This document shows, piece after piece, positions 9,957 to 42,283 of a stretch of DNA of 42,283 nt. Made by a program: the position numbers and the translations under genes. The number at the start of each line of letters is the position of its first letter. Position 1 is the first letter of the stretch. The notes below the pieces were generated by a model that made no database searches, was not told where the DNA came from, and worked only from the letters and a program-made list of their open reading frames with translations. The DNA comes from a virus: the IMG/VR virus record IMGVR_UViG_3300009161_003226, positions 1 to 42,283 of that record; one strand, written 5' to 3'.

Positions 9957-12900
9957 ATGTCAGACATTAAAAAATCAGTAAATTTATTACCAGAATTTTT
10001 GCGGTCAGATAAAAATTCTAAATTTTTAGCTAGTACAATTGATCAATTAATCCAAACACCCCAAGTTGAACGTGTGGACGGCTTTGTGGGATCTAAATTA
10101 ACACCTACTTATAATCCCTTAACTGATTCCTATCTAACTGAAACTTCAGAATTACGAAACAGATATACTCTTGAACCTGCATTGGTTCTTAAAGATTCAA
10201 CTAATAACATCACTGATATAATTGCATATGATGATTTAATTAATGAGTTAAAAAATCGAGGAGGTGTAACAGATAATCTTGATAAACTATTTAGATCTAA
10301 AACATATTCTTTTGACCCTTTAATTGATTGGGATAAACTTGTTAATTTTACTGATTATTGTTGGCTACCTACTGGACCGATAGCTATTCAATTTCCAGAA
10401 GATAAATCAGTGGGCTTTACTATTGATAGTAAAATAGTAGGTCAGCCGTCATATACTATGAGCAATGGATATGCATTGAGCAATGGAATGAAAATTTTAT
10501 TTTCAGCCAACGCTGAATTAAAATATCGAAATAAAGAATATATTGTAGAGGGAGTAGGAAATTCAATTGTTTTAGTTGAATTTGAATCTTTATCTTTTTA
10601 CGGCTCTATATCTACAGTATTAAACGAAACTTATGACACTACCACGTTTGATACGTATTCTTTTGATGCAGATCGTCCTCTTCCTTTAACTCCTGAATAT
10701 ATTACTATTAATAAAGCTAGTAATGATGCAAATCCTTGGTCACAATATAATAGATGGTTTCATAAAGATGTTATTAAAATCTCAAATGAAATAAACAATA
10801 TACCTAATATAATTCCTCTTCAGGCAAAAGCAAAACGTCCTATTATTGAATTTAGAGCAAATTTAAAATTACATAATTTTGGATCGACAGGAATTCAAAA
10901 TATTGATTTAATCGATACTTCTACTACTGATGCATTTGCTCATGTACATAATTTGTATGGATATTATATTGACGGTGTTAAACTTCAGCAAGGTCATAGG
11001 GTAATTTTTAACTCTGATGATAATTACGAGGTTCGGGGAAAAATATATAAAGTTACTTTTGATATAACAGGAGCAACCTCAATATTAAAATTAATTCCAG
11101 AATTAGTATATCCTGCAGAGTTAAATTCTTTAAATGTAAAATTAGGTTCTAAATTTGCTGGAACTAGTTGGTATTTTGATGGTGTTGCTACTAAATGGAT
11201 ATACGCACAACAACATACTACAATAAATCAACCGCCACTATTTGATTTGTTTACATCGGATGGTATCAGTTATACAAAAGTTAATAATCCTAATAATTTT
11301 ATCGGAAATCAAATATTTGGATATGAAATAGGAACAGGAAATAATGATAGTGTATTAGGATTTCCATTAAAATATCAAAATAATGGTAAAAGTTATTTGT
11401 TTAAAAATTATTTTATGACAGATGTAATATCAATTACACAAAATAACATAGCATCCACAATTCCAACAGGCAATACATTTTTAAAATTAGATAACACATT
11501 AGTTAATGTATGGACTGATGCGGTTGAGCATAAAATTCCTATAATAGAAATTCAAACAATTGTTGCTTCTACTACTACATTAATATTAACATGTTTAGAT
11601 GCACCAATTAGTACAAATATATCTATTTTTGCATATGTTAATAATGTAAAAATTCCTATTACAGTAACTAATGTATCTAATGCAGTTATAATAACTAATT
11701 CATCTACATTTGCTGCAAATGAAGTTGTATTATTAAAAATATATACCGATCAATTACCTAATAGTAATGGTTATTATGAAGCTCCTATAGGATTATCACA
11801 TAATCCATTAAATGAATTTTTAAATAGTTTAACACTAGGAGAATTAAAAGATCATTTAACAACAATGATTAATAATACTAGTAGCGTTATCACAAACAAT
11901 CTACGAGATATATCAGATTATACCAAGTACGGATCTCGATTAGTAATTAATGACACACCGATGGCATTCGCACAATTCTTTTTTGGAAAAAAAGAACATA
12001 ATGTAGTAGATGCAATAAGACAAGCCGGTGCAGATTATGATCGATTTAAATTAAACTTTTTAAGAGTAATTAAAGAAATTGATAGTCAATTAACCGCACC
12101 TGATGCACTTGACCTAGCATTATCTATTATAAATGATGAAAAGGATATTCGGTCTTTATATCGAACATCTGATATGTTAGGATATGGAAAAAATAAAATT
12201 GTAAGAACAATTACAGTTACGGATGTTACAATTACTTCTTATCCAATTAGTTTTAGTTTTGATATTAATCGTCTAAGTTTTCAATCAGTTATTATATATC
12301 GTAACGGAGTTCAATTAATTGGCACTAGGAATGAGTATTTTTTCGATTATGATAATAATGCAGTGATTATATTACTACCACTAGCATTAAAAGATGTAAT
12401 TAGTATTCATTGTTATCTTGATACTACGGGATGCTATATTCCGCCTACACCGTCTAAATTGGGAATGTATCCTGCCGCGGTTCCTACTGTATATGTAGAC
12501 ACATCAGTTACTCCTGCTCGTACATATATTTTAGGACATGATAGTTCTTCATTCCTTGGATATGGAGATTATAGAGATAATATTATTTTAGAATATGAAA
12601 AACGTGTTTATAATAATATTAAAGTTAGATTTAATAATAAAATTTTTGATTCCATTTCATCTCAACCTGGAGCATTTAGAAATTTAAAATATACTTTTAA
12701 AGATTTTGATAACTTAATTGAAAATGATTTTTCTACGTGGTGTGGAACATATGGAATAGATAGTGTAACTAATGATACATTTGATGTCTCTCGTAGTACT
12801 ACTTGGAATTATAGCGGCACTATTGATACATTGTTTAAGAAACCTATACCTATTAGTATGGCATTATTATATTTTTATGATACTGCTCGTCCACACACAT

Positions 12901-18900: not shown

Positions 18901-21900
18901 ACGATTCGTTAGGAAACTCTGTTCCTGATCCAGCATTAACTGACAGAAATCGATACGGAGTAAGTATCAGACCTCGACAAACATTATTTAAAAATAGAAT
19001 AGAAGCACTACGTAGTTTAGTATCTTTTGTAAATTCTGTATTTCTAAAAAATAGAATTGTTGGTATTTACGAGTTTACTAATCTTAATAAAAAAGAAGAA
19101 ATTCCAGTAGAGTTTTCCAATGAATATGATGCATTAGTTGAAGACATCGAAATTTTAGCTGAAATAGAAACTATAAAATATCAACGAGCTGAAATAAATT
19201 GTTATGCTGATAATGGAAAAATAAAAAGTGTATCTATAATAGATGCAGGTTTTGGTTATATCAATCCTCCAAAAATTAACATACTTACAAATAGTTCTAT
19301 CTCTGCAGAATTTGTAACTGAAATAGATAGTTATGGAAGATTAAGTTCGGTAACAATAATTAATGCAGGCGTTGGATATCCTGACGGTATAGTTCGTTCA
19401 AACGTAAGACCGCATACAGTTATTGTAGAAATTAACAGCGAAAGCGGAAATAGATGGACAAAACATGAATTTGATTATATAAAACAAGTATGGGTTAAAA
19501 CGCATACTCAAAAATATAATACTACTTTATTTTGGAAAAAAATTGATTGGAAAGCCGACACCTTTAACAATTTTAAAATAATTAATCATACCATAAGTGA
19601 TTTATTTGCACTAGCTTCTTTTACTGGAATTAAAATCGGTGATTATTTAAAAGTTAAAAATAGCGGAGACGGGTCATATATTATACTTGAAAAAGTACAA
19701 GACTCTGGTAATTTCACACCGTTATATAATATTATATATAAAGAAAACGGTACAATTAGATTACGTGATACTTTATGGAACTATAATTTAGGAAAATATG
19801 CATATGATAAATCTGATATTGATGAAACATTATATGATGAACGTCCTGACTTAGAAATATACTATATTCTTGTTGCATTACGTGATAATATTTTTATCAA
19901 TGATTTAAAAATAAATTGGAATTTATTCTTTTTTACTGCTGTAAAATACGCCCTTACTGAACAAAAATTATTAGATTGGGCATTTAAAACATCATTTATT
20001 AATGTAACGAATAATGTTGGGTCTTTAAATCAACAACCTGTATATCAGTTAAACAATGAATCATATTTTGAAGATTATATTAATGAAATAAAACCTTATC
20101 GTACTAAGATAAGAAGTTATTCTTCAATATATAAGAATTTAGAACAAGCTGATTTATCTATAAACGATTTTGATTTTCCTTCTGTCTATAATGAAAACAC
20201 TAACAATTTTGATATAGTTTCCGTTTCTGCAGACACTACAGGATTAATAGATACTTCTCCTTGGAAAGACTGGAAGAATAATTATAAATTGCATGTAGGA
20301 TCAATAAAAGTAGGATATGCGGGATCAGGTTATACACAGCGGCCTATAGTGTCTATTGTTACTGCAACAGGTGATACTGGATCCGGCGCAACCGCGGAAG
20401 CATATATTAGAAACGGTAGTTTATATGAAGTAATAGTTACTAATCCAGGGAGTGGATACACAACTACACCAAAGGTAATAATTACCGGAGGTGGACAAGG
20501 TGTTAATGTTGCTAGAGTATCAGTAATAATGAATAATAATGTTACTAGAGCAAACACTATTGGTATGAAATTTGATAGAGTTTCGTTAACAGGTAATTTA
20601 ACACAATTAAATACGTCCGATGAATTTATTTGTGATGGAACTACGAATAAATTTATTCTATCATGGTTACCGGCACCGGATAAAACAACAATAGTGCCTT
20701 TACTTGATGGAAAATTAGTATTCGCAACAGATTATACAATTGAATATTATGAAGTAGCTACTACTAAAAATACATCAAATGATGTAGCAAAATTATTTCC
20801 TATTAATTCTTGGAAAGGTGAATCGTCAATTGATCATCGATATCGATATTATACTAGTGTTGTTTCTAGTTCATTGGCGCCTAGTGAAATTCAACACTAT
20901 GCTAGATTTGTATTTTTAAATCAAATTCCTAATTTTGGTCAAATATTTAAAATATCATATAATAAAAATATAAAATTATATAATGCTATTGATCGAATTT
21001 CTGCTGCATACAATCCTACAAATAGTATGCCAGGTAAAGAATTGCCGTTATTAATGACTGGAGCAGAATTTCCAGGATTGTTAGTACAGGGTCTAACATT
21101 TAATCAAACTTCAAATTGGGATAGCGTAGGTACACCTTACGATTCTATACCCTGGAATGATGCAATTAGTGATTATACAATAGTTGAAAAATACTATTCT
21201 GCTATAAATGTAGGTTCGGGTGGAATTTCACTGACTCCTACTAATTTGGTAGTAGGAATGCAGGTGTCTGTAGTGGGTAGTCAACCAGGTGAATACTTTA
21301 GAAAAAATACGCTAATAAAAACAATACAGAACAATGCAATAGAATTGAATAATATTATTCCAAGCACGTATCCTATTAAAGTATATTCATCTGGTACTGC
21401 TTATAATTCTACAGTAACTATTGTTTTATCCGAACCGATAGGTACATCTATCCTTGTAGGTGATCTTATACAACTAGTAGGTGTTCACGCATTATATGGA
21501 AATGGCATTACTGCTCTTCGAATAAACACTAAATTTACAACTACTGGTGTAGTATCAATTACAATACCAGCACCGTATTTTAACAATGGAACTACAGCAA
21601 CATTTACCGCAGTTAAAACTGAAAATACCGTAACAGGTTTTACTCAGGTAGGTACATATAGCATGGGCTATAGTTACTTACAACTTTTTGACAACAAAGA
21701 TTTGCCAACGGCATATATGCCAGCTGGTCAAAGCAGAATACAGACAAATTCGGGATTGTACTCACCCCCTCGACTAGTTACACAGCTTGACAACGGCGGC
21801 ATTATCATTACTTCTACAGCTCCTATCTACTGGGATGTGCCAGTCCCATTTGATATCCTTGGACTGACACATAGGCCAGATGTAGAAGCAATACTTGATA

Positions 21901-24900
21901 ACTCATTTAGTGTAGTATATCCTGTTGACAAAATTATTAATGATAATACAATCATTACTAGATTAGTAAATGGTGCGATAAGTAGTACAGCCTCTGCATT
22001 TGTTGACGAATATTATCGAAATCCAGACGGGTCTCTTTCAAAGTTTAAATATGAGATTCCGCAAGGCCGGCCAGGGGAATCGCTCGGCAATATCGGTCTA
22101 CCGGCTCTTATGTTATTTGGAGTTATTAAACGTATTCCTACTAATGGTAGATTATTAGAGTATATTAATACTATAACAGTTGCATCAACTTCTTCAGTGA
22201 CTATTCAAACTGGAGTTTATTATGACTCCGCCCAAGAAGCAAAAATTGTATTAAGTTCAACATCTTCATCAATAACTACTACAGGTGCGCCCGGCGGAAA
22301 TTCTACATCTGGTGGTAGTGTTGAGTATTCTACTTGGCCGCTTCAGCCGTATGATAATCCGATTGTATATAATATAACTACATCAACTGACGGTAAAAAT
22401 CGGGCAGTAGTAACCGTGTATAGTCTTAACCCGTCTGCTCGTATGGTATCTGGCACTTTACAGGTATCAATATATGGAAATACACAATTAGAATTTTGGA
22501 AAACAGATCCTGGTAAAAATAGTTTGATAGATTCTTCAATTAACGAACTATATCCTACTTATAATTTACAAGCTTCTAACTATATTGGATATAATCCAGA
22601 AGACATTATAATTGATGGTAATAATTTTTTAAATGCCATTGATAGCTATGCTCCGGAAGAATGTGTCCCGGGTCATGTTCGAGATTCAGTAGGAATTAGT
22701 GTATATACTGCATCAACGTCAACAACTCCAATGGTAATATCCGGAGTAATTGGAGTTTTAGGAAATACAATTGAGCCTACTCGAGCTAAAATAAATCTAT
22801 TATCTGACAATGAAATAGGAGCATTAGTTTTTGCTAACGGCATAAAATTTGATAGGGTTCCAGCTGCAAACTTTACTACAAATACACAATATGCTATTAT
22901 TGGTGATCAAATTGTAATACCAATTCAACCTCGTAGGACTTTGGTAGAATATACATTTATTACAGCTGGGTCAAATGTAATAATGGATAGCAATTTTACA
23001 GTAACATACACTAGCTTACCATACCCTAATGCTTACTTAGATATTGTTGTTGAAAGTTCGTTAAACATTAACGATGTAAGAAGTGTGTATGTGTTAGTTA
23101 ATGGCAACGAAATTGCTGAAGCAGTAACTAACAATTTGAATGATTATGGTTATAAATTAAAACCAATGTCGTCTACTAATAATAGAGCATCGATACACAT
23201 TCAAGGAGTTCAACCTGGTGGTTCGGTAATTGTTCAAGCATGGTTCTTTAATAAACCATTTGTTAATTTTAATCGAGTACATGAACAATTATATACAACT
23301 TCAACTACTACTACTAATATTCTTCTAGATTCTACTATTGGAAATATACAACCAGTAAGTGATAAAGTAATAGTTGAAATTATAACACCATCAGGTAGAA
23401 CTAGACTATCACCGCCTTGGGTAGCTTATTACAAAATTAACAATAGTCAATACACATTTGCAATTGACCCTATTAATTATAGACCATCAGTGTATACTTT
23501 AGATAATGTTAAAGTATTTTTAAATGGAAAAGAACTTCGTCCAGGTTTTGATTTTTCTATTAATGGAGCAACTCAAACATTTACTATTACACGACCTAAT
23601 ACAGTAGACGGAGATGCTATAGCAGTTATGCCATTATTAGATTATGAATATATTATTACTAATAATAAATTAACTTTATCATCAGCTATTAGTACGGGTA
23701 CTGTTAAAATAACATCGTTTACTAATCATGATAATATGATGATAAACACAGAAAAATTTTCGTTAACTGGCAGATCTGTTACGTTAAATTCTTATATACT
23801 AAGTGATACTTATGTATGGGTTACATTAAATAATCAATGGTTAATTGCAAATTATGATTATAAAGTGCTTTCTGATTATAAAACTATTGTATTTGCTGAT
23901 TCTATAGAAACTGGTAGCAATTCTAAAGTTATTGTTACTATAGTTAATCCTCCGAGCTATGGAAATACTATACTAGGATATAGAATGTTTTATGATATGT
24001 TTAATCGTCATTATTTTGCACGGTTATCGACATATTTTTCTACAAGATTAGCACAACCTTTACAATATACTGACACTTCAATTATTGTAGAAGATGGTGA
24101 TCATTTATTTCAACCTAATCCGTCTTTAAGATTACCGGGAGTTATATTACTTGACGGCGAACGAATAGAATATACTTCTAAAAATGGAAATCAATTAACT
24201 GGTTTACGAAGAGGTTCATTAGGGACAGGCCCCCCTAAATTTTCAGATCAATACACTACAGTTATTGATCAAAGTATTACTCAAAAAATTAAAACTGAAG
24301 AATACATTAATATTCAACGGATTGAAAGTTCAAATACTAATACATATATTATTAGTACATTATCAAACACGCTTAGTAATTATAGTGTAAATTCATCAGG
24401 CGATGTTAGTGGGATATCATTACCTGCCTCAGTTGCAAATTTCTATATGGGAATAACATTATTAACAACGAGTACTATGATAAATCCGCCAGCAGCAATT
24501 GATCAGGTAGAAGTGCGTTATGGTGGCCGCCTATTAAGAAAAACTTCTATAGATGTACATGATAAGTCTTTATCATATTATTCTTCTAAAGATAGTATCA
24601 TACCACTTCCTCCTGAGTTTAGTATTATTACAGCAACTCAAACATTAATATTAAATATTGATGAAACCATTACTACAGGTACAACAATAACTGTTATTCA
24701 AAGATTGGGTAAATTATGGGAAGAAAATACATCAACATCGTTATTATCTAATGCAACTTCAGCATATATTACACGCGGTAATAGGGCAGAATTCTTACGT
24801 GAAAGACCTGCACAATTACCCGATATATATTATTATGGTGGAGATAAGATACTTTATGATAGTGGTCTTGCAATGACTGATGAAAACGGTGAAAACTTAG

Positions 24901-24911
24901 AAGGATACTAA
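9957..24911 (+). CDS. Giant (4984-residue) multidomain tail/baseplate protein in the gp7 position
   Basis: One uninterrupted frame of nearly 15 kb immediately follows gp6, where T4 has gp7. Visible modules, in order: an N-terminal virion-type region (about 1-1000); two chitin-binding-like modules near 1275-1345 and 1550-1600 (YKQGQLVRYNNRFYRV and YLPGSIVRYNGKYYQS); seven FG-GAP-like beta-propeller blades starting near 1966, 2031, 2116, 2188, 2236, 2576 and 2659; a PA14-like beta sandwich at about 2410-2522, placed between blades five and six; two GxGY-type modules near 3091-3145 and 3455-3530; and C-terminal repeats of a V-x-L-N-G-x-x-L...DY type (near 4516 and 4619). A LLDGERIEYT segment near 4730 resembles phage tail proteins. 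There is no signal peptide or membrane segment. A role as wedge component and adhesion scaffold is inferred from order and domains; direct gp7 homology cannot be shown by eye. Confidence 0.72.
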   Translation: MSDIKKSVNLLPEFLRSDKNSKFLASTIDQLIQTPQVERVDGFVGSKLTPTYNPLTDSYLTETSELRNRYTLEPALVLKDSTNNITDIIAYDDLINELKNRGGVTDNLDKLFRSKTYSFDPLIDWDKLVNFTDYCWLPTGPIAIQFPEDKSVGFTIDSKIVGQPSYTMSNGYALSNGMKILFSANAELKYRNKEYIVEGVGNSIVLVEFESLSFYGSISTVLNETYDTTTFDTYSFDADRPLPLTPEYITINKASNDANPWSQYNRWFHKDVIKISNEINNIPNIIPLQAKAKRPIIEFRANLKLHNFGSTGIQNIDLIDTSTTDAFAHVHNLYGYYIDGVKLQQGHRVIFNSDDNYEVRGKIYKVTFDITGATSILKLIPELVYPAELNSLNVKLGSKFAGTSWYFDGVATKWIYAQQHTTINQPPLFDLFTSDGISYTKVNNPNNFIGNQIFGYEIGTGNNDSVLGFPLKYQNNGKSYLFKNYFMTDVISITQNNIASTIPTGNTFLKLDNTLVNVWTDAVEHKIPIIEIQTIVASTTTLILTCLDAPISTNISIFAYVNNVKIPITVTNVSNAVIITNSSTFAANEVVLLKIYTDQLPNSNGYYEAPIGLSHNPLNEFLNSLTLGELKDHLTTMINNTSSVITNNLRDISDYTKYGSRLVINDTPMAFAQFFFGKKEHNVVDAIRQAGADYDRFKLNFLRVIKEIDSQLTAPDALDLALSIINDEKDIRSLYRTSDMLGYGKNKIVRTITVTDVTITSYPISFSFDINRLSFQSVIIYRNGVQLIGTRNEYFFDYDNNAVIILLPLALKDVISIHCYLDTTGCYIPPTPSKLGMYPAAVPTVYVDTSVTPARTYILGHDSSSFLGYGDYRDNIILEYEKRVYNNIKVRFNNKIFDSISSQPGAFRNLKYTFKDFDNLIENDFSTWCGTYGIDSVTNDTFDVSRSTTWNYSGTIDTLFKKPIPISMALLYFYDTARPHTSPWRMLGFFDRPRWWVPTYGNAPYRSTNTLLWTDLENGYVRGTNTYLPRYTRLGLSSILPVDINGNLKNVFTSLAIPNTYTNNQSNWKFGDNGPAEASWRNRNSNYPFAVCAALAVIFPVEFCSTQYDLSRTTLNAAGQVIYNGNYLNLKNLVIAGENDNQIAGYGVYIAENGQRVDSQYNEKLRQDLDYLNINLFHKLGGFASKDKLQITIDSIDPKSTSPGVILPSEDYSLILNVSNPIVTARISGIIVQRSKGNFKIKGYDVKHPYFEILKPIKISTSGAVRVGGVSEEFTEWSSVVNNGNNGLSSVDLTSASSSTTRYYKQGQLVRYNNRFYRVKTGHNAETSFDLTLYQQLPELPVKGGASAQISKTFENIVTKIPYGTEFSSVQEIYDVIIGYGAFLEKQGFIFDDFNSDLNEILNWKLTGKEFLYWTTQNFADGNLITLSPFANSLKYNFPNSVVDDISGKKYEYSLLKADGKPYPIDRFTMSREDTICTIKTRDANEGLFFAVLHSVQKEHAMVFNNYTVFNDTIYDITTGYKQQRIKLSGFRTKNWNGDLFSPGFVFDDVNITDWQSYKMYLPGSIVRYNGKYYQSLIKIISSKTFDFTKWTQLPEKPVSKLLPNFDYKVDQFEDFYSLDIDNFDSGQQQLAQHLTGYTPRSYLNNIFTNPISQYKFYQGLIKDKGTKNALDKLSKAGQFSNKGELSFNEEWAFRIGHYGSFETFNEIEFTLTEGTSLENPYVVKFVDTIPSDANPLINHVVTSDLLLTPNDYSASNAMSSMAGTLNDNNIVLTTAGYVRLDDVTTTAYSKNSLLDIANNAMIQDGVTVWLGFLENGDWAVYRYTKQLSKITGVFVSAPTIEITFVTDGHHNLNIGDIISVVRFNEQVNGVYIVSAIPTINQFAVKSTLASIENAELINYGGLYRFENARYSNLKQLSEITDLLKLNAGDKVWIDSGTDNKWQVYEKIKNYDVKVVETAGQPLDQEFGSSVWASDNSSVMLVSSPNWHTDNAYSYGRVKVYNQIKTEWKRQYDYILNANNKTYADPTSVSDFGHAIQYDIGKKLYITGAPLASSIRSHSTGTGTVILSTGSGLIKSWSNEGLVKIISRAEDHGKIDVNIVLVNPYGQLTTTATNSKFGYSIAINQVVATTATTLLVGAPGSSTGYVFAYKLNLTTATNATATITGFSHSTNVLSVRPPITLTLSTGSYWGHKIAGSLRGFAISAPAHNTSTGVVQTYNNDLQPRQTITSPFGLNGKFGHDIAISNDAMYMIISAPYARGTNEPYGKVAVYKNLGNLTDYLASRPEVILALATNISAPVYYGEVTILNWMTAGLTGFNQYWINYRASHPADAAIYDAERAVDAVIKGGSNAGVAIVDSRARVIAAYQNHPDAQLYPSEPDIRYWMENGLGSKNNVINSRQLAGGLGGARRSTDINYELTAVTLDYAWNDFMNSYAIWNADGTPTLNFTTSVSFNRSGIFIFELAADNYASMYVDNINILSSYGFTNTERREIYVPQGTHTIRIGAYNSGGPAGLAFKITSDIAFTNTDTSIFDASVVYNNILYPNEYARNIAERAAQQATFQLDQIITNPLLASDLKFGYSVSISKDNTTIGIGALGKNRTKVQPFDITSNIGETTFDNSSTKFYDNILDGGTVYLYNKVGDKFIQADELNDVNIISGSKYGSCLAVTNNNVFVGAPASDLVSNVDKSKFYIFNKIDTTSQSWKLLRTQEDTVDVSGINRISLIDTLKEEVIEYLDVIDPLKGKIAGIADQELTYRAASDPATYSIGLAGTIVDSSTSWIDDHIGELWWDLSTVKYQWYEQGDDIFRKNNWGKLFPGASIDVYEWVKSYILPSEWAAQADTNKGLINGISGQPKYVNNSSISIKQLFNNVTGSFENVYYFWVKNKVTLPGTKNRRLSAYQVASYIADPVSNGLKFIEILSPSAIAFANVQPLLIGNRINANISTDNRSSIPRHTEWLLLNENNANSVPNTLLEKKLFDSLIGHDSLGNSVPDPALTDRNRYGVSIRPRQTLFKNRIEALRSLVSFVNSVFLKNRIVGIYEFTNLNKKEEIPVEFSNEYDALVEDIEILAEIETIKYQRAEINCYADNGKIKSVSIIDAGFGYINPPKINILTNSSISAEFVTEIDSYGRLSSVTIINAGVGYPDGIVRSNVRPHTVIVEINSESGNRWTKHEFDYIKQVWVKTHTQKYNTTLFWKKIDWKADTFNNFKIINHTISDLFALASFTGIKIGDYLKVKNSGDGSYIILEKVQDSGNFTPLYNIIYKENGTIRLRDTLWNYNLGKYAYDKSDIDETLYDERPDLEIYYILVALRDNIFINDLKINWNLFFFTAVKYALTEQKLLDWAFKTSFINVTNNVGSLNQQPVYQLNNESYFEDYINEIKPYRTKIRSYSSIYKNLEQADLSINDFDFPSVYNENTNNFDIVSVSADTTGLIDTSPWKDWKNNYKLHVGSIKVGYAGSGYTQRPIVSIVTATGDTGSGATAEAYIRNGSLYEVIVTNPGSGYTTTPKVIITGGGQGVNVARVSVIMNNNVTRANTIGMKFDRVSLTGNLTQLNTSDEFICDGTTNKFILSWLPAPDKTTIVPLLDGKLVFATDYTIEYYEVATTKNTSNDVAKLFPINSWKGESSIDHRYRYYTSVVSSSLAPSEIQHYARFVFLNQIPNFGQIFKISYNKNIKLYNAIDRISAAYNPTNSMPGKELPLLMTGAEFPGLLVQGLTFNQTSNWDSVGTPYDSIPWNDAISDYTIVEKYYSAINVGSGGISLTPTNLVVGMQVSVVGSQPGEYFRKNTLIKTIQNNAIELNNIIPSTYPIKVYSSGTAYNSTVTIVLSEPIGTSILVGDLIQLVGVHALYGNGITALRINTKFTTTGVVSITIPAPYFNNGTTATFTAVKTENTVTGFTQVGTYSMGYSYLQLFDNKDLPTAYMPAGQSRIQTNSGLYSPPRLVTQLDNGGIIITSTAPIYWDVPVPFDILGLTHRPDVEAILDNSFSVVYPVDKIINDNTIITRLVNGAISSTASAFVDEYYRNPDGSLSKFKYEIPQGRPGESLGNIGLPALMLFGVIKRIPTNGRLLEYINTITVASTSSVTIQTGVYYDSAQEAKIVLSSTSSSITTTGAPGGNSTSGGSVEYSTWPLQPYDNPIVYNITTSTDGKNRAVVTVYSLNPSARMVSGTLQVSIYGNTQLEFWKTDPGKNSLIDSSINELYPTYNLQASNYIGYNPEDIIIDGNNFLNAIDSYAPEECVPGHVRDSVGISVYTASTSTTPMVISGVIGVLGNTIEPTRAKINLLSDNEIGALVFANGIKFDRVPAANFTTNTQYAIIGDQIVIPIQPRRTLVEYTFITAGSNVIMDSNFTVTYTSLPYPNAYLDIVVESSLNINDVRSVYVLVNGNEIAEAVTNNLNDYGYKLKPMSSTNNRASIHIQGVQPGGSVIVQAWFFNKPFVNFNRVHEQLYTTSTTTTNILLDSTIGNIQPVSDKVIVEIITPSGRTRLSPPWVAYYKINNSQYTFAIDPINYRPSVYTLDNVKVFLNGKELRPGFDFSINGATQTFTITRPNTVDGDAIAVMPLLDYEYIITNNKLTLSSAISTGTVKITSFTNHDNMMINTEKFSLTGRSVTLNSYILSDTYVWVTLNNQWLIANYDYKVLSDYKTIVFADSIETGSNSKVIVTIVNPPSYGNTILGYRMFYDMFNRHYFARLSTYFSTRLAQPLQYTDTSIIVEDGDHLFQPNPSLRLPGVILLDGERIEYTSKNGNQLTGLRRGSLGTGPPKFSDQYTTVIDQSITQKIKTEEYINIQRIESSNTNTYIISTLSNTLSNYSVNSSGDVSGISLPASVANFYMGITLLTTSTMINPPAAIDQVEVRYGGRLLRKTSIDVHDKSLSYYSSKDSIIPLPPEFSIITATQTLILNIDETITTGTTITVIQRLGKLWEENTSTSLLSNATSAYITRGNRAEFLRERPAQLPDIYYYGGDKILYDSGLAMTDENGENLEGY

Positions 24912-34605: not shown

Positions 34606-35880
34606 TTATTTATAATAGGCAGTTTGGCCGAATGGTGAAATTATGGTTTCGTTGCCGTGAATAACAAATAATGTATCACAGTAATCTTCATCACCCCAGC
34701 TTCCGCAAGGATAGCCATCTGTAAACATAATAAAGCGTTTTGGTTCAATACCCTCATTTTTCATAAATTGCCAGTTAGCATCAAAGTCAGTACCGCCACC
34801 GCCTTTGCACTCGTATGCATTAATATCATCGGCATTGTCACCAGTGTATTGGGCATAATTATATATCTCAGTATCAAAACACCAAATGTCTAATTTAAAA
34901 TCAGCATACTCGTCCATGATGCCTTTAACTTCACTTAAAAAGTCTTTAGCCATTTCATCGCTAATACTTCCGCTCATGTCAATAGCAATACTAACATCAA
35001 TAGTTTCTTCATTCATCATTCCGGGTAATATTGCACCTGAATGCTGTGACTTACGATTAGGTCTGCTGAAACTAAAATTACTTTTAAGAATACTTTGAAT
35101 ATTCATACGTAATAACTGCCGCCAATCCATCTTAGGTTCAGTAAGATCTTTGATCATACGTTGAATACCTGCAGGCACTTTGCCAGCACCTGCGTTCTGC
35201 GCGGCAGCAATAGTTGCTTCTTTGATTTCGTCTCGAATTTGCTTTTTTTCTTCAGCAGTTAATTTTGGACGACCTTTACCTTTTCCCTTACCTTCATCAT
35301 CACCATCTTGATCACCACCTGGGCCGTTATCACCGTCGTCATCATCTAAGTGATCGTCAAGTAATTCACCTAGGCTACCAATATCAATCTTTTCTGCTTT
35401 TTCGTATAGGTCGTTATAAATTTGTTCATAACTCATTCCGCGATATTTGTCGTCTTGAAAAATTTGAATAAAACTAGGAACAGTACCAATTCGTTCGTCT
35501 TTTAGAATTTGATTAGCAGCATAGTCTGCGGCAATATTTGATAGTACTGGATCACGTCCATCACGACGTCCCATGTGGTCAAAAACATTGTGTAATACTT
35601 CATGTGCAAACCCAAACTCTGCTTCTTTGGGAGTAAGTTTGTTCACAAATCCATAATTAAAGTAAAAATGTCTGCCGTCTGTGGCTAGCGTATTGCACCA
35701 GGCATCGGCTTCTACCATTTTAAGACGAGTTGCTAAATTTCCAAAGAACGGATGACGTAGCAATAGGCCAACTCTAGCAGTAATTAACTTATCTAGAATT
35801 TTAGCCTTTTCATTGGGTGTAAATTCTTTATTGAGCCAATCTTGCTTTTTTTGACGCTCTGCTTTCATTACTTTAGACAT
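34606..35880 (-). CDS. Metallopeptidase-like / von Willebrand factor A protein (DUF2201-type), partner of MoxR
   Basis: The 424-residue product has an N-terminal zinc-peptidase-like domain with HEVLH at 93-97 (HExxH), followed by an acidic Asp/Gly-rich linker at about 173-195 and a basic patch. The C-terminal von Willebrand A domain has a metal-ion-dependent adhesion site: DMSGS at 301-305, Thr364-Asp365 in GGGTDF, and Asp388 in FTDGY. This layout matches the DUF2201 family, usually encoded beside MoxR-type AAA+ ATPases, as here. Such pairs act as chaperone or metal-insertion systems in bacteria; the phage target is unknown. The gene has its own sigma70-like promoter (35909-35937) and an AAAAGG ribosome site. 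Confidence 0.85.
   Translation of the reverse strand: MSKVMKAERQKKQDWLNKEFTPNEKAKILDKLITARVGLLLRHPFFGNLATRLKMVEADAWCNTLATDGRHFYFNYGFVNKLTPKEAEFGFAHEVLHNVFDHMGRRDGRDPVLSNIAADYAANQILKDERIGTVPSFIQIFQDDKYRGMSYEQIYNDLYEKAEKIDIGSLGELLDDHLDDDDGDNGPGGDQDGDDEGKGKGKGRPKLTAEEKKQIRDEIKEATIAAAQNAGAGKVPAGIQRMIKDLTEPKMDWRQLLRMNIQSILKSNFSFSRPNRKSQHSGAILPGMMNEETIDVSIAIDMSGSISDEMAKDFLSEVKGIMDEYADFKLDIWCFDTEIYNYAQYTGDNADDINAYECKGGGGTDFDANWQFMKNEGIEPKRFIMFTDGYPCGSWGDEDYCDTLFVIHGNETIISPFGQTAYYK
34607..34614 (-). promoter_or_regulatory. Candidate T4-type late promoter, exact TATAAATA
   Basis: On the minus strand this reads TATAAATA, identical to the T4 late consensus core. Transcription would start near 34601, about 7 bases before the ATG of the small gene at 34313-34594. 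It would serve that gene and the downstream small genes and thyA as a late unit. The site overlaps the end of the VWA gene, so chance occurrence cannot be excluded. Confidence 0.4.
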
Positions 35881-35908
35881 AGTGTAACCTTTTAGTGTTT
35901 AAGTATAT

Positions 35909-35937
35909 ATTATACATTAAATTTATCAAAAGAGCAA
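35909..35937 (-). promoter_or_regulatory. Sigma70-like promoter of the VWA gene
   Basis: On the minus strand: -35 TTGCTC (35937-35932), a 17-base spacer and -10 TATAAT (35914-35909). Transcription would start about 20 bases before the gene's ATG at 35880. The -10 is perfect and the spacer ideal; the -35 matches 4 of 6 positions. It begins two bases past the terminator of the preceding gene. Confidence 0.55.
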
Positions 35938-35939
35938 GT

Positions 35940-35967
35940 AAAAATCCCCCCCTTGTGGGGGATTTTT
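35940..35967 (-). terminator. Rho-independent terminator after the MoxR gene
   Basis: A perfect 11-bp inverted repeat (AAAAATCCCCC at 35940-35950 with GGGGGATTTTT at 35957-35967) with a 6-base loop. On the minus strand the hairpin ends in a U-tract and begins at the MoxR stop codon. Because both flanks are A/T tracts it could stop transcripts in either direction, but no converging gene is present. Confidence 0.85.
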
Positions 35968-37049
35968 TAACCTTCCATTGCTTGGATAATATATTTTCCA
36001 TACTTGTCATGGAATTTATCAAAGTTCTTCAATTTACTAGCATCAAAGGGCAATTGGTATCCAGTTAGTGCAACTTTGGCACCCATAACAACTAGCTCAG
36101 TTGGAAAATTATCCATCATAAAGCCAAAGAAATTATCTGCCATTGAATCCCAATTTTTAACTTTCTTGCGGTCAGCTTCTTGGAGCTCGTAACACAAACT
36201 AATAGTTAAAGAATACATTGCAGAAATTTCTTTAATTTCAGATTTTGTAACTTTACCTGCTAGTACATCAGTTGGATCAGGCATCTGTTTAGCAACCTTG
36301 CGATGTGCCATAAATTTAATTGCCAAACCTTCACCGATAGCACCTGAAATTAGATCAGTAAGAGTGTTATCTGGAACATCATCTTCTTCCAACAATTCAC
36401 TAACAAATACCCAAGAGCGGGGAGTAGCGAATGCTTTGCTAGGACTTTTTGGATCAAAGTCGTATAGATCTTGTTTGGAAAAACCAACATAACCTAATAC
36501 TTGTTCGTGAATACGATTTTGTACAGCCCAAGAATGGAAGTCATCAAAATCGCAACGAAGTTCTAAATGCAAGAAACGATTAGCCAATGGAGCAGGCATG
36601 CGATAAGTAACACCTTTATCAGTTTCACGGTTACCTGCGGCAACAATACTAACACCTTTTGGCAGCTGATAAGTACCAACACGACGGTTAAGAATAAGTT
36701 GATATGCTGCTGCCTGTGTAGCAGGTGCCGCTGAGTTTAGCTCATCAAGGAACAAGATAGAAGTATCTTCTGGATCGCTAGGAAACTCTAGCGGAGGTGC
36801 CCATGCCATAGTACCGAGTTGACTATTATAAAATGGAATACCTTTAATATCTGTAGGTTCCCAAAGACTTAAACGAACGTCAATAACGTTTCGATCTTGC
36901 TCTGCACCAAGTTGTTTAACGATATCGGATTTACCAATTCCAGGAGGGCCCCACATGAATACAGGACGTTGCTTTTTCAAGCATTTACGGATTGCTGCTT
37001 TGGCTTCGTTGGGACTAACAGTACGATTTGCGGAAAGTTTTTCTGACAT
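35967..37049 (-). CDS. MoxR-family AAA+ ATPase
   Basis: MoxR ATPases remodel partner proteins, commonly together with a von Willebrand A protein. Here the core is clear: Walker A GPPGIGKS at 34-41, Walker B SILFLDEL at 97-104, sensor-1 Asn140 in SIVAAGN, and an arginine in PLANRFLHLEL near 158 that fits the arginine-finger position. A C-terminal helical region (about 220-360) completes the protein. At 360 residues it is of usual size. It is related to what is often annotated as CobS in marine T4-like phages. The next gene downstream encodes the VWA/peptidase partner but is separated by a terminator and a new promoter, so the two may be expressed at different levels. Confidence 0.9.
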   Translation of the reverse strand: MSEKLSANRTVSPNEAKAAIRKCLKKQRPVFMWGPPGIGKSDIVKQLGAEQDRNVIDVRLSLWEPTDIKGIPFYNSQLGTMAWAPPLEFPSDPEDTSILFLDELNSAAPATQAAAYQLILNRRVGTYQLPKGVSIVAAGNRETDKGVTYRMPAPLANRFLHLELRCDFDDFHSWAVQNRIHEQVLGYVGFSKQDLYDFDPKSPSKAFATPRSWVFVSELLEEDDVPDNTLTDLISGAIGEGLAIKFMAHRKVAKQMPDPTDVLAGKVTKSEIKEISAMYSLTISLCYELQEADRKKVKNWDSMADNFFGFMMDNFPTELVVMGAKVALTGYQLPFDASKLKNFDKFHDKYGKYIIQAMEG

Positions 37050-37829: not shown

Positions 37830-38063
37830 TTAGAAATTACCACCATCCATTTTAATTTCAATCTTATCCGGAACTTTAGTTTCCACAATAGCTGACAATG
37901 TTTGATCTAATTTACCAGTTAGTCGTGTCATTGCCATGCTAATACTATCATATAAATCGTTGTATTCTTTAGCAGTTAATGCTAATGTTTTTTGTCCACT
38001 TTTTTTGGCAATTCTTGCTTTATCTAAAAAGTCTTCTATAGGAAATACGTTAATTGGTTTCAT
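37830..38063 (-). CDS. Small protein of unknown function
   Basis: The 77-residue protein begins MKPINVFPIEDFLDKARIAKK and continues as a mostly helical, charged chain (LTAKEYNDLYDSISMAMTRLTGKLDQTLSAIVE) ending in a Lys/Asp-rich tail. It may form a short coiled coil. The ATG overlaps the stop of the upstream gene (ATGA at 38060-38063), so it is translated from the same message. No known family recognised. Confidence 0.62.
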   Translation of the reverse strand: MKPINVFPIEDFLDKARIAKKSGQKTLALTAKEYNDLYDSISMAMTRLTGKLDQTLSAIVETKVPDKIEIKMDGGNF

Positions 38064-38521
38064 GCTTTGTTTACACTAGCTAAGGCTGCCTTCATTGCTG
38101 CTTCTGTTTTAAAAGGTCCTCGATAAGGATTTCTATCTATAGTTATTAGCTTAGGACAAAAACTTTTAACCCACCCTTTTCGGAATTGAATTATATAATA
38201 GCCTGCACAGTATTGACTTTTGCTTTTTGAACTTTTAGCAAATAATGGTAATTTTTTCTTTACATCATACACAGACCCATGTGGTTTCGAACTGCAAGGA
38301 TAGTCATATATAAAATGTGTAAGTGGTTCTATTTCAAATTTATGTTTAGACACTACATCTAATTTGTCAACTATGTCTTTATAATTTTTAATATTGATAG
38401 CTTGACCTTTACGTAAAAACGTATAACCTTTTTTATTTTTAGCAATAGATCCTATCTTTTTGCCCGAATCCTCAAGGATCCATTCTTTATTTGGTATTAA
38501 TACTTTTGATATAATGTTCAT
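38060..38521 (-). CDS. Conserved phage protein of unknown function
   Basis: The 153-residue product has a basic N-terminal half with a KKIGSIAKNKKGYTFLRKGQ segment. Its central block, YDYPCSSKPHGSVYDVKKKL then KSKSQYCAGYYIIQF and WVKSFCPKLITIDRNPYRGPF, resembles a conserved hypothetical of marine T4-like phages (memory, not a search). Cysteines in CSSKPH, YCAGYY and SFCPK might bind metal, but spacing does not match a finger I know. An AAGG ribosome site precedes the ATG, and a TTGTTC/16/TATAAG promoter-like pair lies upstream (weak). It is coupled to the next gene by ATGA. Confidence 0.7.
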   Translation of the reverse strand: MNIISKVLIPNKEWILEDSGKKIGSIAKNKKGYTFLRKGQAINIKNYKDIVDKLDVVSKHKFEIEPLTHFIYDYPCSSKPHGSVYDVKKKLPLFAKSSKSKSQYCAGYYIIQFRKGWVKSFCPKLITIDRNPYRGPFKTEAAMKAALASVNKA

Positions 38522-38563
38522 TGGAATAACCTTATACTTTTTTATTTTATAGGAACAAGTTTT

Positions 38564-39568
38564 TTATACGGGCAAAGATATACTATATCTTGCATTGAGT
38601 GGTTCTGCATAACTTTGTACCTGTTCACTGATTTTAATTAAATCATACTCTGCACACAATTTTAATAACCTAATGCCTACTTGAGAAATATTCTTTTCTG
38701 CCTTTGTAGCAGTTTCTATTGTTTCTTTAATTACCAATTTAACATCATCTGGTTGTGCCGTTAAATCACAAAGTACTACATTGCGGTTATAATCATCTAA
38801 TACACGATGTTCAATACTCTCGTGGTCAGTCCACCGCTGCAACATGAGATTGTTCCAAGACCAGCCTTTGGATTCTCTATCAGCAAACGCATCACGGAGA
38901 CCAACTTTATTCTTTGTCCCTTTCTCACGTACTCCCGGATAAGCACTAAAGATATTGTCAGAAGTATCGCCACGCATACACTTCTCAAAAAGTAACCATG
39001 CAGGATCTGGAGGACCCTTTGGCAAATTAGTTTTTTTATCAATTACATATTTGCCCTTCTCATCAAAGTATCCTTTGTCTGTAGTGGTAATTTGCATTAC
39101 ACCGTTATATTGTTTGACATTGGGTGCAATGAGTTGTGCAAAATCTCCATCTGTCGAAATGATAACATGGTTATCTAACGGATGAGTTTGTATCCAACCT
39201 GCAATCAAATCATCTGCTTCTAGTTGCGGATGCTGTAATACAGTACAGTTAGTTTTGTTAGTAATATACTCTTTAAACTGATCAAATGTTTCCCAAAATA
39301 CACGATCTTCTTCTGCTTCCTTAGGACTTTGAGCAGCCCGGGCTTCTGTGCGTTGACGCTTGTAAGGAGCATACACATCCTTTCGCCAACTGCGACCTTC
39401 TAAAAAGAAAATAACATGATCGCCTTTAAAGTCTTTCCATGCTTTACGAACGCTACCTAGTACAGTGGCAAGACTCATACCAATCTTGTCATTAAGATCA
39501 CCACGAGTAGCATGTCGGGCTCTAAAGAAAGTATTAGCTGTATCTACAAGAATATATGTTTGCGTCAT
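38564..39568 (-). CDS. rnh: RNase H / 5'-3' flap exonuclease (T4 Rnh-like, FEN family)
   Basis: T4 RNase H removes RNA primers and short flaps during lagging-strand synthesis. This 334-residue protein shows the metal-binding acids of the FEN/5' nuclease family: Asp9 (ILVDTANTFFRARHA), Glu57 (FFLEGRSWRK followed by YAPYKRQR), Glu117/Asp119/Asp120 (QLEADDLIAGW), Asp140/Asp142 (ISTDGDFAQL) and Asp201/Asp204 (RGDTSDNI). The following AYPGVREKGTKNK segment fits the helix-hairpin DNA-binding element. Length is close to T4 Rnh (305). Its ATG overlaps the upstream stop (TAATG at 39566-39570), so it is translated together with the QueE-linked unknown gene. A general phage 5' exonuclease is the alternative name. 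Confidence 0.88.
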   Translation of the reverse strand: MTQTYILVDTANTFFRARHATRGDLNDKIGMSLATVLGSVRKAWKDFKGDHVIFFLEGRSWRKDVYAPYKRQRTEARAAQSPKEAEEDRVFWETFDQFKEYITNKTNCTVLQHPQLEADDLIAGWIQTHPLDNHVIISTDGDFAQLIAPNVKQYNGVMQITTTDKGYFDEKGKYVIDKKTNLPKGPPDPAWLLFEKCMRGDTSDNIFSAYPGVREKGTKNKVGLRDAFADRESKGWSWNNLMLQRWTDHESIEHRVLDDYNRNVVLCDLTAQPDDVKLVIKETIETATKAEKNISQVGIRLLKLCAEYDLIKISEQVQSYAEPLNARYSISLPV

Positions 39569-39981
39569 TAAGAATTCTCTTTTCTTCCATTACCTAAATT
39601 ATTTACATCAATAAAACCGGCAGTTCTTTGATTCATATTAACACCTGAATCGTTTCCAACATTTCTACAAAGTTCTCCAAACCAAGCATCTACTACTGCT
39701 TCTTCGGAATCACCTTTATATCCATTTGCTCTTAATTGTAACACAAAGTATTCATTCCAATCAAGTTCAAAAAATCCATTACGTATATTATCTTTGTTAA
39801 CATGAGTATCTAATACAGTAACCCATGGTTCTTTATTTGCAGTAGCAATTTCTTTTGGAGAAAGTTTTACTGGCTCTTCTTTTTTAATCAATTCTATATC
39901 TTTAATGCCAAATAGTTTTTTAATAAATTGTTTCATAGTATTCTTTTTAATTGGTATAACAGCTTGATCTAAGATACCCAT
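39568..39981 (-). CDS. Conserved phage protein of unknown function
   Basis: From the ATG at 39981 the product has 137 residues and overlaps the QueE stop as TAATG, the arrangement used throughout this cluster. A GTG at 39993 would add four residues. An internal ATG at 39936 (MKQFIKKLFGIKDIEL) is also plausible because the preceding 15 residues look unlike a structured start. The conserved core is KEPWVTVLDTHVNKDNIRNGFFELDWN followed by a helix (SEEAVVDAWFGELCRNVG); from memory this is a widespread unknown of marine T4-like phages. No motif for catalysis is seen. It is in one transcription unit with queE and the RNase H gene. Confidence 0.7.
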   Translation of the reverse strand: MGILDQAVIPIKKNTMKQFIKKLFGIKDIELIKKEEPVKLSPKEIATANKEPWVTVLDTHVNKDNIRNGFFELDWNEYFVLQLRANGYKGDSEEAVVDAWFGELCRNVGNDSGVNMNQRTAGFIDVNNLGNGRKENS

Positions 39982-40841
39982 TAAGTACCCCACTCATTTT
40001 TAAATAGTGGAACTTGTAGTCGGTCACTGTACCTTAGTCCATGTTTCATTGCTAACAATGCTACATTACGATTGTTCATTGCATACACACTTTCAACACC
40101 GCCGACTGGCATTAGGTACACATGACCTGTAAATCCTGCATTACGATATTCGGCAATGGCACGTTCTGCATCAGTAAAGTCTTCTTCTGTGGCAATAACA
40201 AACTTCAAATATGCTGTACCATATTCTTCATACTCAAATACACGTTCAGGTTTGATAGCATCCTCCCACGGCTCTCCGCTGCATGGCAGTTTGGCACTTA
40301 CACTAAATGTAACGTCTCTCCAGAAGTCAATATCATCAGAATGATATTTCCAGGTGTGCAAATATTGTTTAAATTCTGTTGTTAACTTCATTGTGCCATT
40401 TGTCTCAAAGGTAATCTCTTTAAGACCTTTCATCTTAGGATGCTTCAACAAGTCTGGATATTGCTTTTGCCAGCCTAACAATGGCTCGCCACCTGTAATA
40501 ACTAAATGTTCATCACGCCATTCACCATGGGGAAGTATTTCCATAATGCGTTCTACAATTGCATCAGTAGTAAGTAATGGACTTAGATCTTTAAAGCGTG
40601 GATCCCAACTGGCATAACTATCACACCCTGTGCTAACTAGTGGTAGTTGTTTGTAATCGTTATACAAATGAACCACTTGTGCAATATCTTCAACTTCTGT
40701 ACTCAGTTCGCCGCGTGGCATACCGAAGCCCCTACAAGAAAAATTGCAGCCAAAAGTTCTAAGGAACACGCTAGGTACTCCCATATATCTACCCTCGCCC
40801 TGTATAGAGTAGAAAAGTTCCGCTATCTTAATCTTTGACAT
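39981..40841 (-). CDS. queE: QueE-like radical SAM enzyme (7-carboxy-7-deazaguanine synthase)
   Basis: QueE makes 7-carboxy-7-deazaguanine, a precursor of queuosine and of 7-deazaguanine bases that some phages put in their DNA. The N-terminal SIQGEGRYMGVPSVFLRT block (12-29) is diagnostic of QueE. The iron-sulfur cysteines are atypical: Cys32 and Cys36 (GCNFSC), with the next candidate Cys73 (STGCDSYASWDPRF) after a 36-residue spacer, instead of a tight C-x3-C-x2-C or C-x14-C-x2-C. GGEP at 117-120 and ETNGT near 145-149 are the SAM-binding motifs. The 286-residue length is longer than E. coli QueE (223). A TTGACA/16/TATAAT promoter and an AGGA ribosome site precede it. Confidence 0.85.
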   Translation of the reverse strand: MSKIKIAELFYSIQGEGRYMGVPSVFLRTFGCNFSCRGFGMPRGELSTEVEDIAQVVHLYNDYKQLPLVSTGCDSYASWDPRFKDLSPLLTTDAIVERIMEILPHGEWRDEHLVITGGEPLLGWQKQYPDLLKHPKMKGLKEITFETNGTMKLTTEFKQYLHTWKYHSDDIDFWRDVTFSVSAKLPCSGEPWEDAIKPERVFEYEEYGTAYLKFVIATEEDFTDAERAIAEYRNAGFTGHVYLMPVGGVESVYAMNNRNVALLAMKHGLRYSDRLQVPLFKNEWGT

Positions 40842-40862
40842 TTATAATTCCTAGAATATATT
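40835..40862 (+). promoter_or_regulatory. Sigma70-like promoter for the radical SAM gene
   Basis: Plus strand: TTGACA at 40835-40840 (within the first codons of queE), a 16-base spacer and TATATT at 40857-40862. Transcription would start near 40869, about 45 bases before the ATG at 40913. It overlaps the oppositely directed queE promoter, so the two may compete. Confidence 0.5.
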
Positions 40863-40868
40863 AAATAC

Positions 40869-40896
40869 ATTATATATGTTTATTTAGATTTGTCAA
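40869..40896 (-). promoter_or_regulatory. Perfect-hexamer sigma70-like promoter for queE
   Basis: On the minus strand: TTGACA (40896-40891), a 16-base spacer, TATAAT (40874-40869), both hexamers perfect. Transcription would start near 40862, giving a roughly 20-base leader with AGGA before the queE ATG at 40841. Likely drives queE, the unknown at 39568-39981 and the RNase H gene. Confidence 0.72.
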
Positions 40897-40912: not shown

Positions 40913-41926
40913 ATGAGAACACAAATTAATTGGATGCTTAATAATTATTGTACATCAGAATGTACTTATTGTCCAACTAAATTGCGGGGAGGAGAATCCC
41001 CAAAAGGTATACTCGAATATATCGAAGTCACTCAACAATTAATTGATCATTATAATTCATTGGGAAGAAAAATTGATTGGATATTTAATGGAGGAGAGCC
41101 ATTAGATATGTTTGATTTTCCTATGATACTTAAATTATGTAAAGAGAATGGTGGTACTATAGATCTTACTACCAATGGCGGAAAACTTTGGTTAGATTGG
41201 TGGGCAATAGCACCACACATTGATTCTTTACATTTAAGTTATCACTATTGGCAAAATCCAAATCTTATAAAATTTATTATACAAGCATTTCAAAAATCTG
41301 ATAAACATATCGATATTGGTGTTCCGATACGTCCTGATTATTTTGATCAAGATATGCAACGTGCATTAGAAATTGAAACTGAATTTAATATAGTTGTTTC
41401 AAAAAATGTATTATATAATGAAGCAGAGCATGTAGGAGGCATGTTTAATTATACTGAAAAACAATTACGTATTATGCGCGGCGAAATAATAGTTGAAGAA
41501 CCAATAATTGAAGAGCCAATTATTGAATTTAAAAAACCTGTTTTTAAAGAAAAAAGAATTAAGATTACCCCTATATATGTTCCAAACAAATTAGTTGAAG
41601 AACAACAATATTTTAAAAATACTACTTTTCAAGAAAGATATGAAAATAAAATAGCAGAAAATCCAGTCTATACTGGTATGTTATGCAATGTGGGAATTGA
41701 AAAATTAACTATATCACATTTAGGATGGGTTTCAGGCAGTTCGTGTAATGATAAACCATTGGGCAATATATGGAGCAATAATGGAATACCGGTGTCTGAT
41801 GCCGAAATAGAACAAAAGATTCTTAATAAATTAAGATTACCAACAACACCTCATGTATGCGGGATGAGAGCGTGTATGGATACATCGGATCAACTAATAA
41901 CTAAATTTCCTCAAACCGGTTCGTAA
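40913..41926 (+). CDS. Radical SAM protein with C-terminal twitch/SPASM-like cysteine cluster
   Basis: This 337-residue protein has the radical SAM cluster motif C-x3-C-x2-C at Cys13, Cys17 and Cys20 (NYCTSECTYCP), a GGEP-type motif at 60-63 and a TTNGG segment near 86-90. The C-terminal part holds Cys258, Cys278, Cys316 and Cys321, spaced C-x12-G-x6-C then C-x4-C. Together with LGNIW this looks like a twitch or reduced SPASM domain carrying a second Fe-S cluster. Such enzymes modify peptides, enzymes or nucleotide-like substrates; the phage substrate is unknown. Residues 195-204 are a tandem EEPII linker. An AAAAGG ribosome site lies upstream. It is the only plus-strand gene in this arm, divergent from queE and convergent with mazG, overlapping the latter by 16 bases. 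Confidence 0.82.
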   Translation: MRTQINWMLNNYCTSECTYCPTKLRGGESPKGILEYIEVTQQLIDHYNSLGRKIDWIFNGGEPLDMFDFPMILKLCKENGGTIDLTTNGGKLWLDWWAIAPHIDSLHLSYHYWQNPNLIKFIIQAFQKSDKHIDIGVPIRPDYFDQDMQRALEIETEFNIVVSKNVLYNEAEHVGGMFNYTEKQLRIMRGEIIVEEPIIEEPIIEFKKPVFKEKRIKITPIYVPNKLVEEQQYFKNTTFQERYENKIAENPVYTGMLCNVGIEKLTISHLGWVSGSSCNDKPLGNIWSNNGIPVSDAEIEQKILNKLRLPTTPHVCGMRACMDTSDQLITKFPQTGS

Positions 41927-42189
41927 ATATTCGACCATTGTTTAAGTTTTTCAATCTTGGCCTTTTTTGCAATTTCGAGGTTGCTCCATGATACAACACC
42001 TAGTTCCATCATGATATCAATCATTGCCAGCACGTCACCTAATTCTTCTTCAAGATGTTCTCGATTAGTTTTAGGCTTACCTGGTTTTACATTATCGGCA
42101 CCAAACCGATTAATTTTACTAACCGCCTGAATTACTTCAGCACATTCTTCTTGCAATATGTCCATGACCTCTTTTTCTTTTGCTTTCAT
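41911..42189 (-). CDS. mazG: MazG-like nucleotide pyrophosphohydrolase
   Basis: MazG enzymes hydrolyse NTPs or (p)ppGpp-type nucleotides to monophosphates; phage forms are thought to tune host nucleotide or alarmone pools. The 92-residue chain carries the all-alpha NTP-pyrophosphohydrolase signature: Glu14/Glu15 and Glu18 in QEECAEVIQ, and Glu49 with Asp52 in EEELGDVLAM. One such domain is the usual size for phage MazG, about a third of the bacterial two-domain protein. A strong AAGGAG ribosome site lies 9 bases before the ATG. Its 3' end overlaps the radical SAM gene on the other strand by 16 bases. The true substrate (dNTP, NTP or alarmone) cannot be read from sequence. Confidence 0.85.
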   Translation of the reverse strand: MKAKEKEVMDILQEECAEVIQAVSKINRFGADNVKPGKPKTNREHLEEELGDVLAMIDIMMELGVVSWSNLEIAKKAKIEKLKQWSNIYEPV

Positions 42190-42283
42190 TTGTTTTTACT
42201 CCTTCTGACAAATATTGATCGTTATGCATCCATTTGTTGTTTACAAGAAATCCCCATTCTCGTGTTTGCGGACCGGGCATAAA
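42137..42283 (-). CDS. Partial small ORF at the window edge (tentative)
   Basis: On the minus strand an open frame enters at the right edge, has an ATG at 42280-42278, and reads MPGPQTREWGFLVNNKWMHN before running on past the mazG start to a stop at 42137-42139. Trp/Asn-rich composition upstream of mazG looks protein-like, but the last third overlaps mazG in another frame and the true start may lie outside the window. I do not recognise it. Confidence 0.3.
   Translation of the reverse strand, partial: FMPGPQTREWGFLVNNKWMHNDQYLSEGVKTNESKRKRGHGHIARRMC

Follow-up and report, generated by a model that had tools for sequence, protein, structure and literature searches.

The window, that is, the whole 42,283-nucleotide stretch of viral DNA that was analysed, carries near its end a gene for a twitch-type radical SAM protein, here called rSAM, that lies between genes for QueE and MazG. 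The features at this locus are:

38060..39993, minus strand: conserved block downstream of QueE, comprising c4 (38060-38521), a 5'-3' exonuclease (38564-39568) and c3 (39568-39993)
39981..40841, minus strand: QueE-like 7-carboxy-7-deazaguanine synthase of phage type (PHROG 2076, E 5e-52; TIGR03365 sub-threshold)
40835..40862, plus strand: promoter-like TTGACA-N16-TATATT, 11/12, directed toward rSAM, poorly conserved
40869..40896, minus strand: promoter-like TTGACA-N16-TATAAT, 12/12, directed toward QueE, in the rSAM-QueE gap
40913..41926, plus strand: twitch-type radical SAM protein gene (open reading frame, PF04055, 46-sequence alignment, AF2 model, dN/dS)
40949..40972, plus strand: CxxxCxxC motif with Cys13, Cys17 and Cys20, predicted SAM-cluster ligands (invariant, 46/46)
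41486..41593, plus strand: hypervariable linker from barrel to twitch, about residues 192-227 (alignments; low pLDDT there)
41684..41875, plus strand: twitch-like C-terminal segment, Cys258-Cys278-Cys316-Cys321 (invariant, 46/46; near-identical spacing in a sister family; profile match to the SkfB C-terminus)
41911..42189, minus strand: MazG-like nucleotide pyrophosphohydrolase (PF03819, E 1.8e-7)
42137..42283, minus strand: 3' end of a cupin gene cut by the window edge (homologue L003:5053-5508; PHROG 4786 'cysteine dioxygenase' type in relatives)

The rSAM open reading frame occupies exactly positions 40913-41926, starts with ATG and encodes 337 amino acids. It is divergent from QueE at a distance of 71 nt and convergent with MazG, which it overlaps by 16 nt, and the gene stands alone on the plus strand facing both neighbours, as an earlier note on this DNA had described. 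There is no room for a precursor peptide between rSAM and either neighbour, in agreement with the same note. Small plus-strand ORFs beside rSAM, considered as co-clustering genes, proved to be antisense shadows of MazG; an unvalidated script returned no small ORFs with a ribosome site near rSAM, a result that carries no weight. Among relatives, 79 of 80 loci have QueE adjacent to rSAM and on the other strand; the remaining contig begins within rSAM. In a second set collected with a divergent query QueE is divergent from rSAM in all 44 loci with QueE, 43 of them within 900 b. The c4/exonuclease/c3 block retains its synteny in about 80 loci and in Pseudomonas phage PA5oct. Beyond rSAM, relatives carry MazG (on either side), a cupin, a glycosyltransferase (GT), two small conserved genes and a TGT-like protein of about 517 amino acids; in 34 of 35 loci the GT lies no more than 4 kb beyond rSAM. 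A phosphoribosyltransferase gene also belongs to this locus. Because the window record breaks off within the cupin gene, the GT and TGT-like genes are predicted for this phage from its relatives, and most of the 7-deazaguanine, TGT-fold and glycosyltransferase context lies beyond the window edge, outside the view of the earlier note. In the QueE of the window, the third SAM-cluster cysteine is displaced by an insert (C32-x3-C36-x36-C73, as against CxxxCxxC); relatives keep all three cysteines without exception, and QueE of nt-1 and PA5oct is laid out in the same way.

The rSAM protein scores over the Pfam cut-off for Radical_SAM, PF04055 (32.4 bits vs 29.5). Across an alignment of 46 full-length homologues, whose identity to the window protein is 43-84%, the CxxxCxxC and GGEP motifs are invariant, and the top AF2/Foldseek matches are radical SAM enzymes, as expected of a member of this superfamily. 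All seven cysteines to which the earlier note had assigned cluster roles (Cys13/17/20 and Cys258/278/316/321) are found at those residues and are invariant in 46/46 homologues, the C-terminal four being conserved as a set, and C76 is the sole other well-conserved cysteine (44/46). The first three would ligate one SAM [4Fe-4S] cluster, and the last four probably one auxiliary Fe-S cluster in a trimmed twitch segment. The C-terminal pattern is C258-x19-C278-x37-C316-x4-C321 in the window protein and C-x19-C-x21-C-x4-C in most members, the second-to-third gap ranging from x20 to x37 among the 46 homologues; in SkfB this segment has 33 residues, against about 21 in most members. The linker between barrel and twitch is absent from some relatives and poly-proline in several. 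Values of dN/dS between homologue pairs are about 0.04-0.19, which excludes a chance ORF, and by this measure the family is under purifying selection.

The AF2 model of rSAM, built from the 46-sequence alignment, has a mean pLDDT of 85.4 and a pTM of 0.80. The twitch domain has been described as one cysteine before and one after a beta-hairpin, followed by two more cysteines (PMC6231123, PMC9012708), and the model shows this half-SPASM topology, the first two of the four cysteines being separated by strands 264-267 and 272-274. Foldseek searches of the PDB with the model returned BlsE, MoaA, EpeE, SuiB, anSME, SpeY and BtrN, and VIA-align gave Z scores of 13.6 for SkfB, 13.6 for PqqE, 13.0 for BlsE, 12.8 for viperin and 12.6 for MoaA. 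As these five lie within about 1 Z of one another they are ties, and assignment of a substrate by structure match was rejected. Profile searches matched the twitch part of SkfB (E 2.1e-4) and the barrels of QueE and YydG/EpeE. BtrN (VIA Z 10.0) and SpeY share with rSAM the radical SAM barrel and a C-terminal four-cysteine segment, and the auxiliary cluster of BtrN is fully ligated by four cysteines (PMC9012708); rSAM differs from both in its low identity (13-18%), its shorter gap between the second and third cysteines in most members and its gene context. The cytosylglucuronate decarboxylase BlsE is the best Foldseek match (E 2.3e-7), but it is only 12-16% identical, has a TM of about 0.5, is tied with several others and has a reported auxiliary motif of CxCxxC.

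No curated family in NCBIfam, PADLOC or PHROGs claims the rSAM protein, and the matches in PHROGs are weak only. The proposal of a twitch-type radical SAM enzyme outside the families of well-known function is thereby upheld by cysteine conservation, fold class and these profile libraries alike, and on the evidence of sequence and predicted fold the protein is a genuine, conserved radical SAM enzyme of the twitch type. Several identities were tried and rejected: QueE (22.7 bits vs a cut-off of 240, the hhalign match to the neighbouring QueE covering the GGEP region only), MoaA (18 bits vs cut-offs of 231-325) and N_Twi_rSAM, NF033640 (12 bits vs 170 needed, with no N-terminal extension in rSAM). 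Relatives of the window family are found on viral contigs only, with 79 loci from a first profile and 113 confirmed with a divergent profile; none was found in bacteria in a scan of GTDB genome contigs, nor among the isolated phages of INPHARED. Judged from these scans, this is a phage-only twitch family carried by a group of large uncultured phages related to PA5oct.

A sister family of 319-residue radical SAM proteins was found through locus L235. It is 23% identical to the window protein by tblastn and aligns with the window family over the whole length in hhalign (probability 98, E 1.7e-13), with nearly the same four-cysteine spacing (C-x18-C-x21-C-x4-C) and one extra cysteine. It is present at no fewer than 98 viral loci, with one bacterial match, in a Rhodobacteraceae MAG, in the genome-contig scan. 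Unlike the window family, which stands as one gene next to QueE, the sister family occurs in tandem arrays with N-terminal-twitch radical SAM genes (NF033640) and sugar-type genes, and these arrays also hold SGNH-like, aminotransferase-like and SDR genes. Arrays of 3-5 tandem radical SAM genes, the N-twitch type included, together with SGNH-like, aminotransferase-like and amidinotransferase-like genes, were observed in many viral contigs (L260-L339).

The rSAM gene is present in 8 of 50 assessable QueE loci and missing from 42, and in one of the eight (L235) the gene is really the distant sister, located at another place on the contig. On the QueE tree its presence requires about 10 changes, at least 5 of them forced by well-supported branches, vs 32 with shuffled labels. 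Locus L178, whose QueE is 91% identical to that of the window, represents the empty site: there MazG adjoins QueE directly, and both rSAM and its 71-nt gap are missing. The QueE-directed promoter-like site in this gap is the only perfect match with a 16-nt spacer in the 42-kb window. Among 56 homologous loci, which are related and not independent, an outward TTGACA-N16/17-TATAAT site, directed toward QueE or MazG, is perfect (12/12) in 29, and 50 have a site of 11/12 or better. The earlier note had suggested that rSAM may be regulated separately, which is only partly borne out: a promoter-like site does point toward rSAM in the window (11/12), but a site of that quality or better recurs in only 2/56 loci, and the strongly conserved intergenic site points away from rSAM. 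As far as sequence can tell, rSAM is an accessory gene that phages have repeatedly acquired or lost as a single gene, along with a sigma-70 promoter-like site facing the operon. It can be read as a gene inserted into an operon in reverse orientation, its promoter restarting the predicted operon transcription. Other cassettes (SDR, aminotransferase, SGNH-like, HIT) also occur in the strip upstream of QueE, and this may be an insertion hot spot.

The wider context was examined in 14 long records of rSAM phages. FolE was found in two of them (G001 and G002) and a QueD/PTPS-like protein in three (G001, G002 and G006); most of the 14 are fragments, and the absence of FolE and QueD from the others means little. 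No QueC exceeded its cut-off in these 14 mostly fragmentary records. The QueD-like protein scores 33 bits vs a QueD cut-off of 89, and in two copies (L110:2043-2549 and L220:2796-3326) the usual zinc-site histidines look altered (SHCNxxHGYSF). An IMPDH/GMP-reductase-type gene, which perhaps steers the purine pool, overlaps FolE or adjoins rSAM in several loci (L120:934-1953; L031:8490-9512; L043, L049, L054). The TGT-like protein (cluster-16) contains the motifs GDSGGYQ and SFDCASP; its AF2 model is weak (pLDDT 60), and all 50 Foldseek matches listed are tRNA-guanine transglycosylases. Pfam TGT (PF01702) has no match in the 14 records, and no similarity to DpdA2 of nt-1 was detectable. The protein is possibly an undescribed DpdA subfamily, set apart by comparison with nt-1 DpdA2 alone. 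It is encoded, for example, at L008:7966-9630, with homologues such as L107:11995-13617, and is named 'hypothetical protein' in PA5oct, whose copy is 41.6% identical.

PA5oct shows the same gene order without rSAM: TGT-like, GT, c11, phosphoribosyltransferase, QueE, c3, RNase H and c4. BUCT-ZZ01, also without rSAM, has QueE, phosphoribosyltransferase, QueD, FolE, a GT, a second TGT-motif protein and another GT, and one of its GTs is 65% identical to that of L039. The GT profile yields only a weak match to WlaC. The GT and the TGT-like protein have a distance correlation of 0.88, the tightest pair tested, and genes of UDP-glucose dehydrogenase-like and NAD-epimerase type lie beside FolE and QueD in rSAM phage genomes. 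Phages known to modify DNA with 7-deazaguanines use DpdA/DpdA2 and FolE-QueD-QueE-QueC (PMC6884629). The rSAM phages resemble them in having QueE, FolE, a QueD-like protein and a TGT-fold enzyme within one phage group, a gene set found in related records and not in the window itself; they differ in the lack of a recognisable QueC and in the added glycosyltransferase and accessory rSAM. The locus looks like a 7-deazaguanine DNA-modification pathway that would end at the 7-carboxy base. No measured modified base was found in the literature for any of these phages.

Given the constant address of rSAM in this 7-deazaguanine locus, the best single guess is that it tailors the base or a sugar added to it, and we tentatively favour rSAM as an accessory radical tailoring enzyme of phage 7-deazaguanine DNA hypermodification, while placing this somewhat short of probable. 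In this scheme FolE, the QueD-like protein and QueE would produce 7-carboxy-7-deazaguanine (CDG), the TGT-fold DpdA-like enzyme would swap CDG into DNA, the glycosyltransferase, supplied by the UDP-sugar enzymes, may decorate it there, and rSAM would carry out a radical change on the base or the attached sugar, its auxiliary cluster perhaps accepting an electron as proposed for BtrN. A full phage S-adenosylmethionine synthetase (MetK) directly beside QueE and near rSAM (L004:1297-2397) fits an extra demand for SAM and was counted in favour of this role. BlsE acts on a base joined to a uronic acid (PMC3715490), and the UDP-glucose dehydrogenase-like genes of the rSAM loci form a parallel that is no more than suggestive. 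The more specific idea is doubtful, namely that the 7-deazaguanine in phage DNA, made without QueC and probably glycosylated, is tailored by a radical SAM/twitch enzyme that related phages carry as an interchangeable single gene. In phage M6, a role in thymidine hypermodification has been assigned to a phage-encoded radical SAM enzyme, and DpdL, DpdM and DpdN are enzymes tailoring 7-deazaguanines. If the tailoring role holds, the chemistry of DNA hypermodification would be new; if rSAM acts on the base, 7-deazaguanine DNA modification would gain a tailoring step catalysed by a radical SAM enzyme, and the scattered occurrence of rSAM would amount to natural variation by which phages evade host restriction. 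Even if it does not act on the base, the analysis defines a twitch family confined to phages and with a constant place in their genomes, and it exposes a FolE/QueD/QueE/TGT-fold/glycosyltransferase locus common to the cultivable PA5oct, in which the predicted base modification is directly measurable.

Against the tailoring role, most relatives with the same QueE locus, as well as PA5oct and BUCT-ZZ01, have no rSAM, and rSAM barely tracks QueE. Its distance correlations are 0.13 with QueE, 0.28 with the TGT-like protein, 0.39 with the GT and 0.60 with c4. These observations suit an rSAM that is independent, moron-like cargo in an insertion hot spot, acting on a sugar, a glycan or a surface component, and whose position next to QueE would reflect a point that tolerates insertions and has a promoter built in, not shared chemistry. 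The patchy presence on the QueE tree and the clean empty site of L178 point the same way, as do the fold-class relatives BtrN, BlsE and DesII, which act on sugars. Since the divergence of rSAM does not follow that of QueE, other cassettes occupy the same spot and the sister family lives elsewhere, in its arrays with N_Twi_rSAM, SGNH-like, aminotransferase-like and SDR genes, such a role is nearly as likely as tailoring. What speaks against it is that the rSAM family is never found away from the QueE locus (44/44 and 79/80), though its immediate neighbours change.

It is unlikely that rSAM matures a ribosomally made peptide or a protein of the phage or its host. The profile matches to SkfB and YydG/EpeE and the VIA ties with SkfB, PqqE and EpeE would suit such a role, but SkfB has an RRE domain, located at its N-terminus (PMC6231123), a precursor peptide and a CXC ligand pair that are without counterpart in rSAM, whose barrel begins at residue 2 of the model with no N-terminal extension. 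No RiPP model of NCBIfam scores above its cut-off, and the tight spacing on both sides would leave only a distant precursor; peptide modification, one of the options raised by the earlier note, thus finds no support. It is very improbable that rSAM makes modified nucleotides in the manner of viperin, or that it is a second enzyme for the reaction of QueE: its best sub-threshold matches are indeed to QueE and viperin/pVip, and viperin structures rank among the VIA ties, but the latter matches (32.9 bits vs an NCBIfam cut-off of 180, residues 4-110; 37.7 bits in PADLOC, residues 5-115) cover the N-terminal barrel only, rSAM has four conserved extra C-terminal cysteines, and a complete QueE already adjoins it.

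Two further observations concern the rest of the window. A MoxR-like AAA ATPase followed by a DUF2201 VWA protein, the latter named 'HNH endonuclease' by PHROGs, is encoded at 34606-37049 on the minus strand, and the pair is conserved in about half of the loci. A single ORF of 4984 amino acids (9957-24911, plus strand) lies in the first half of the window.
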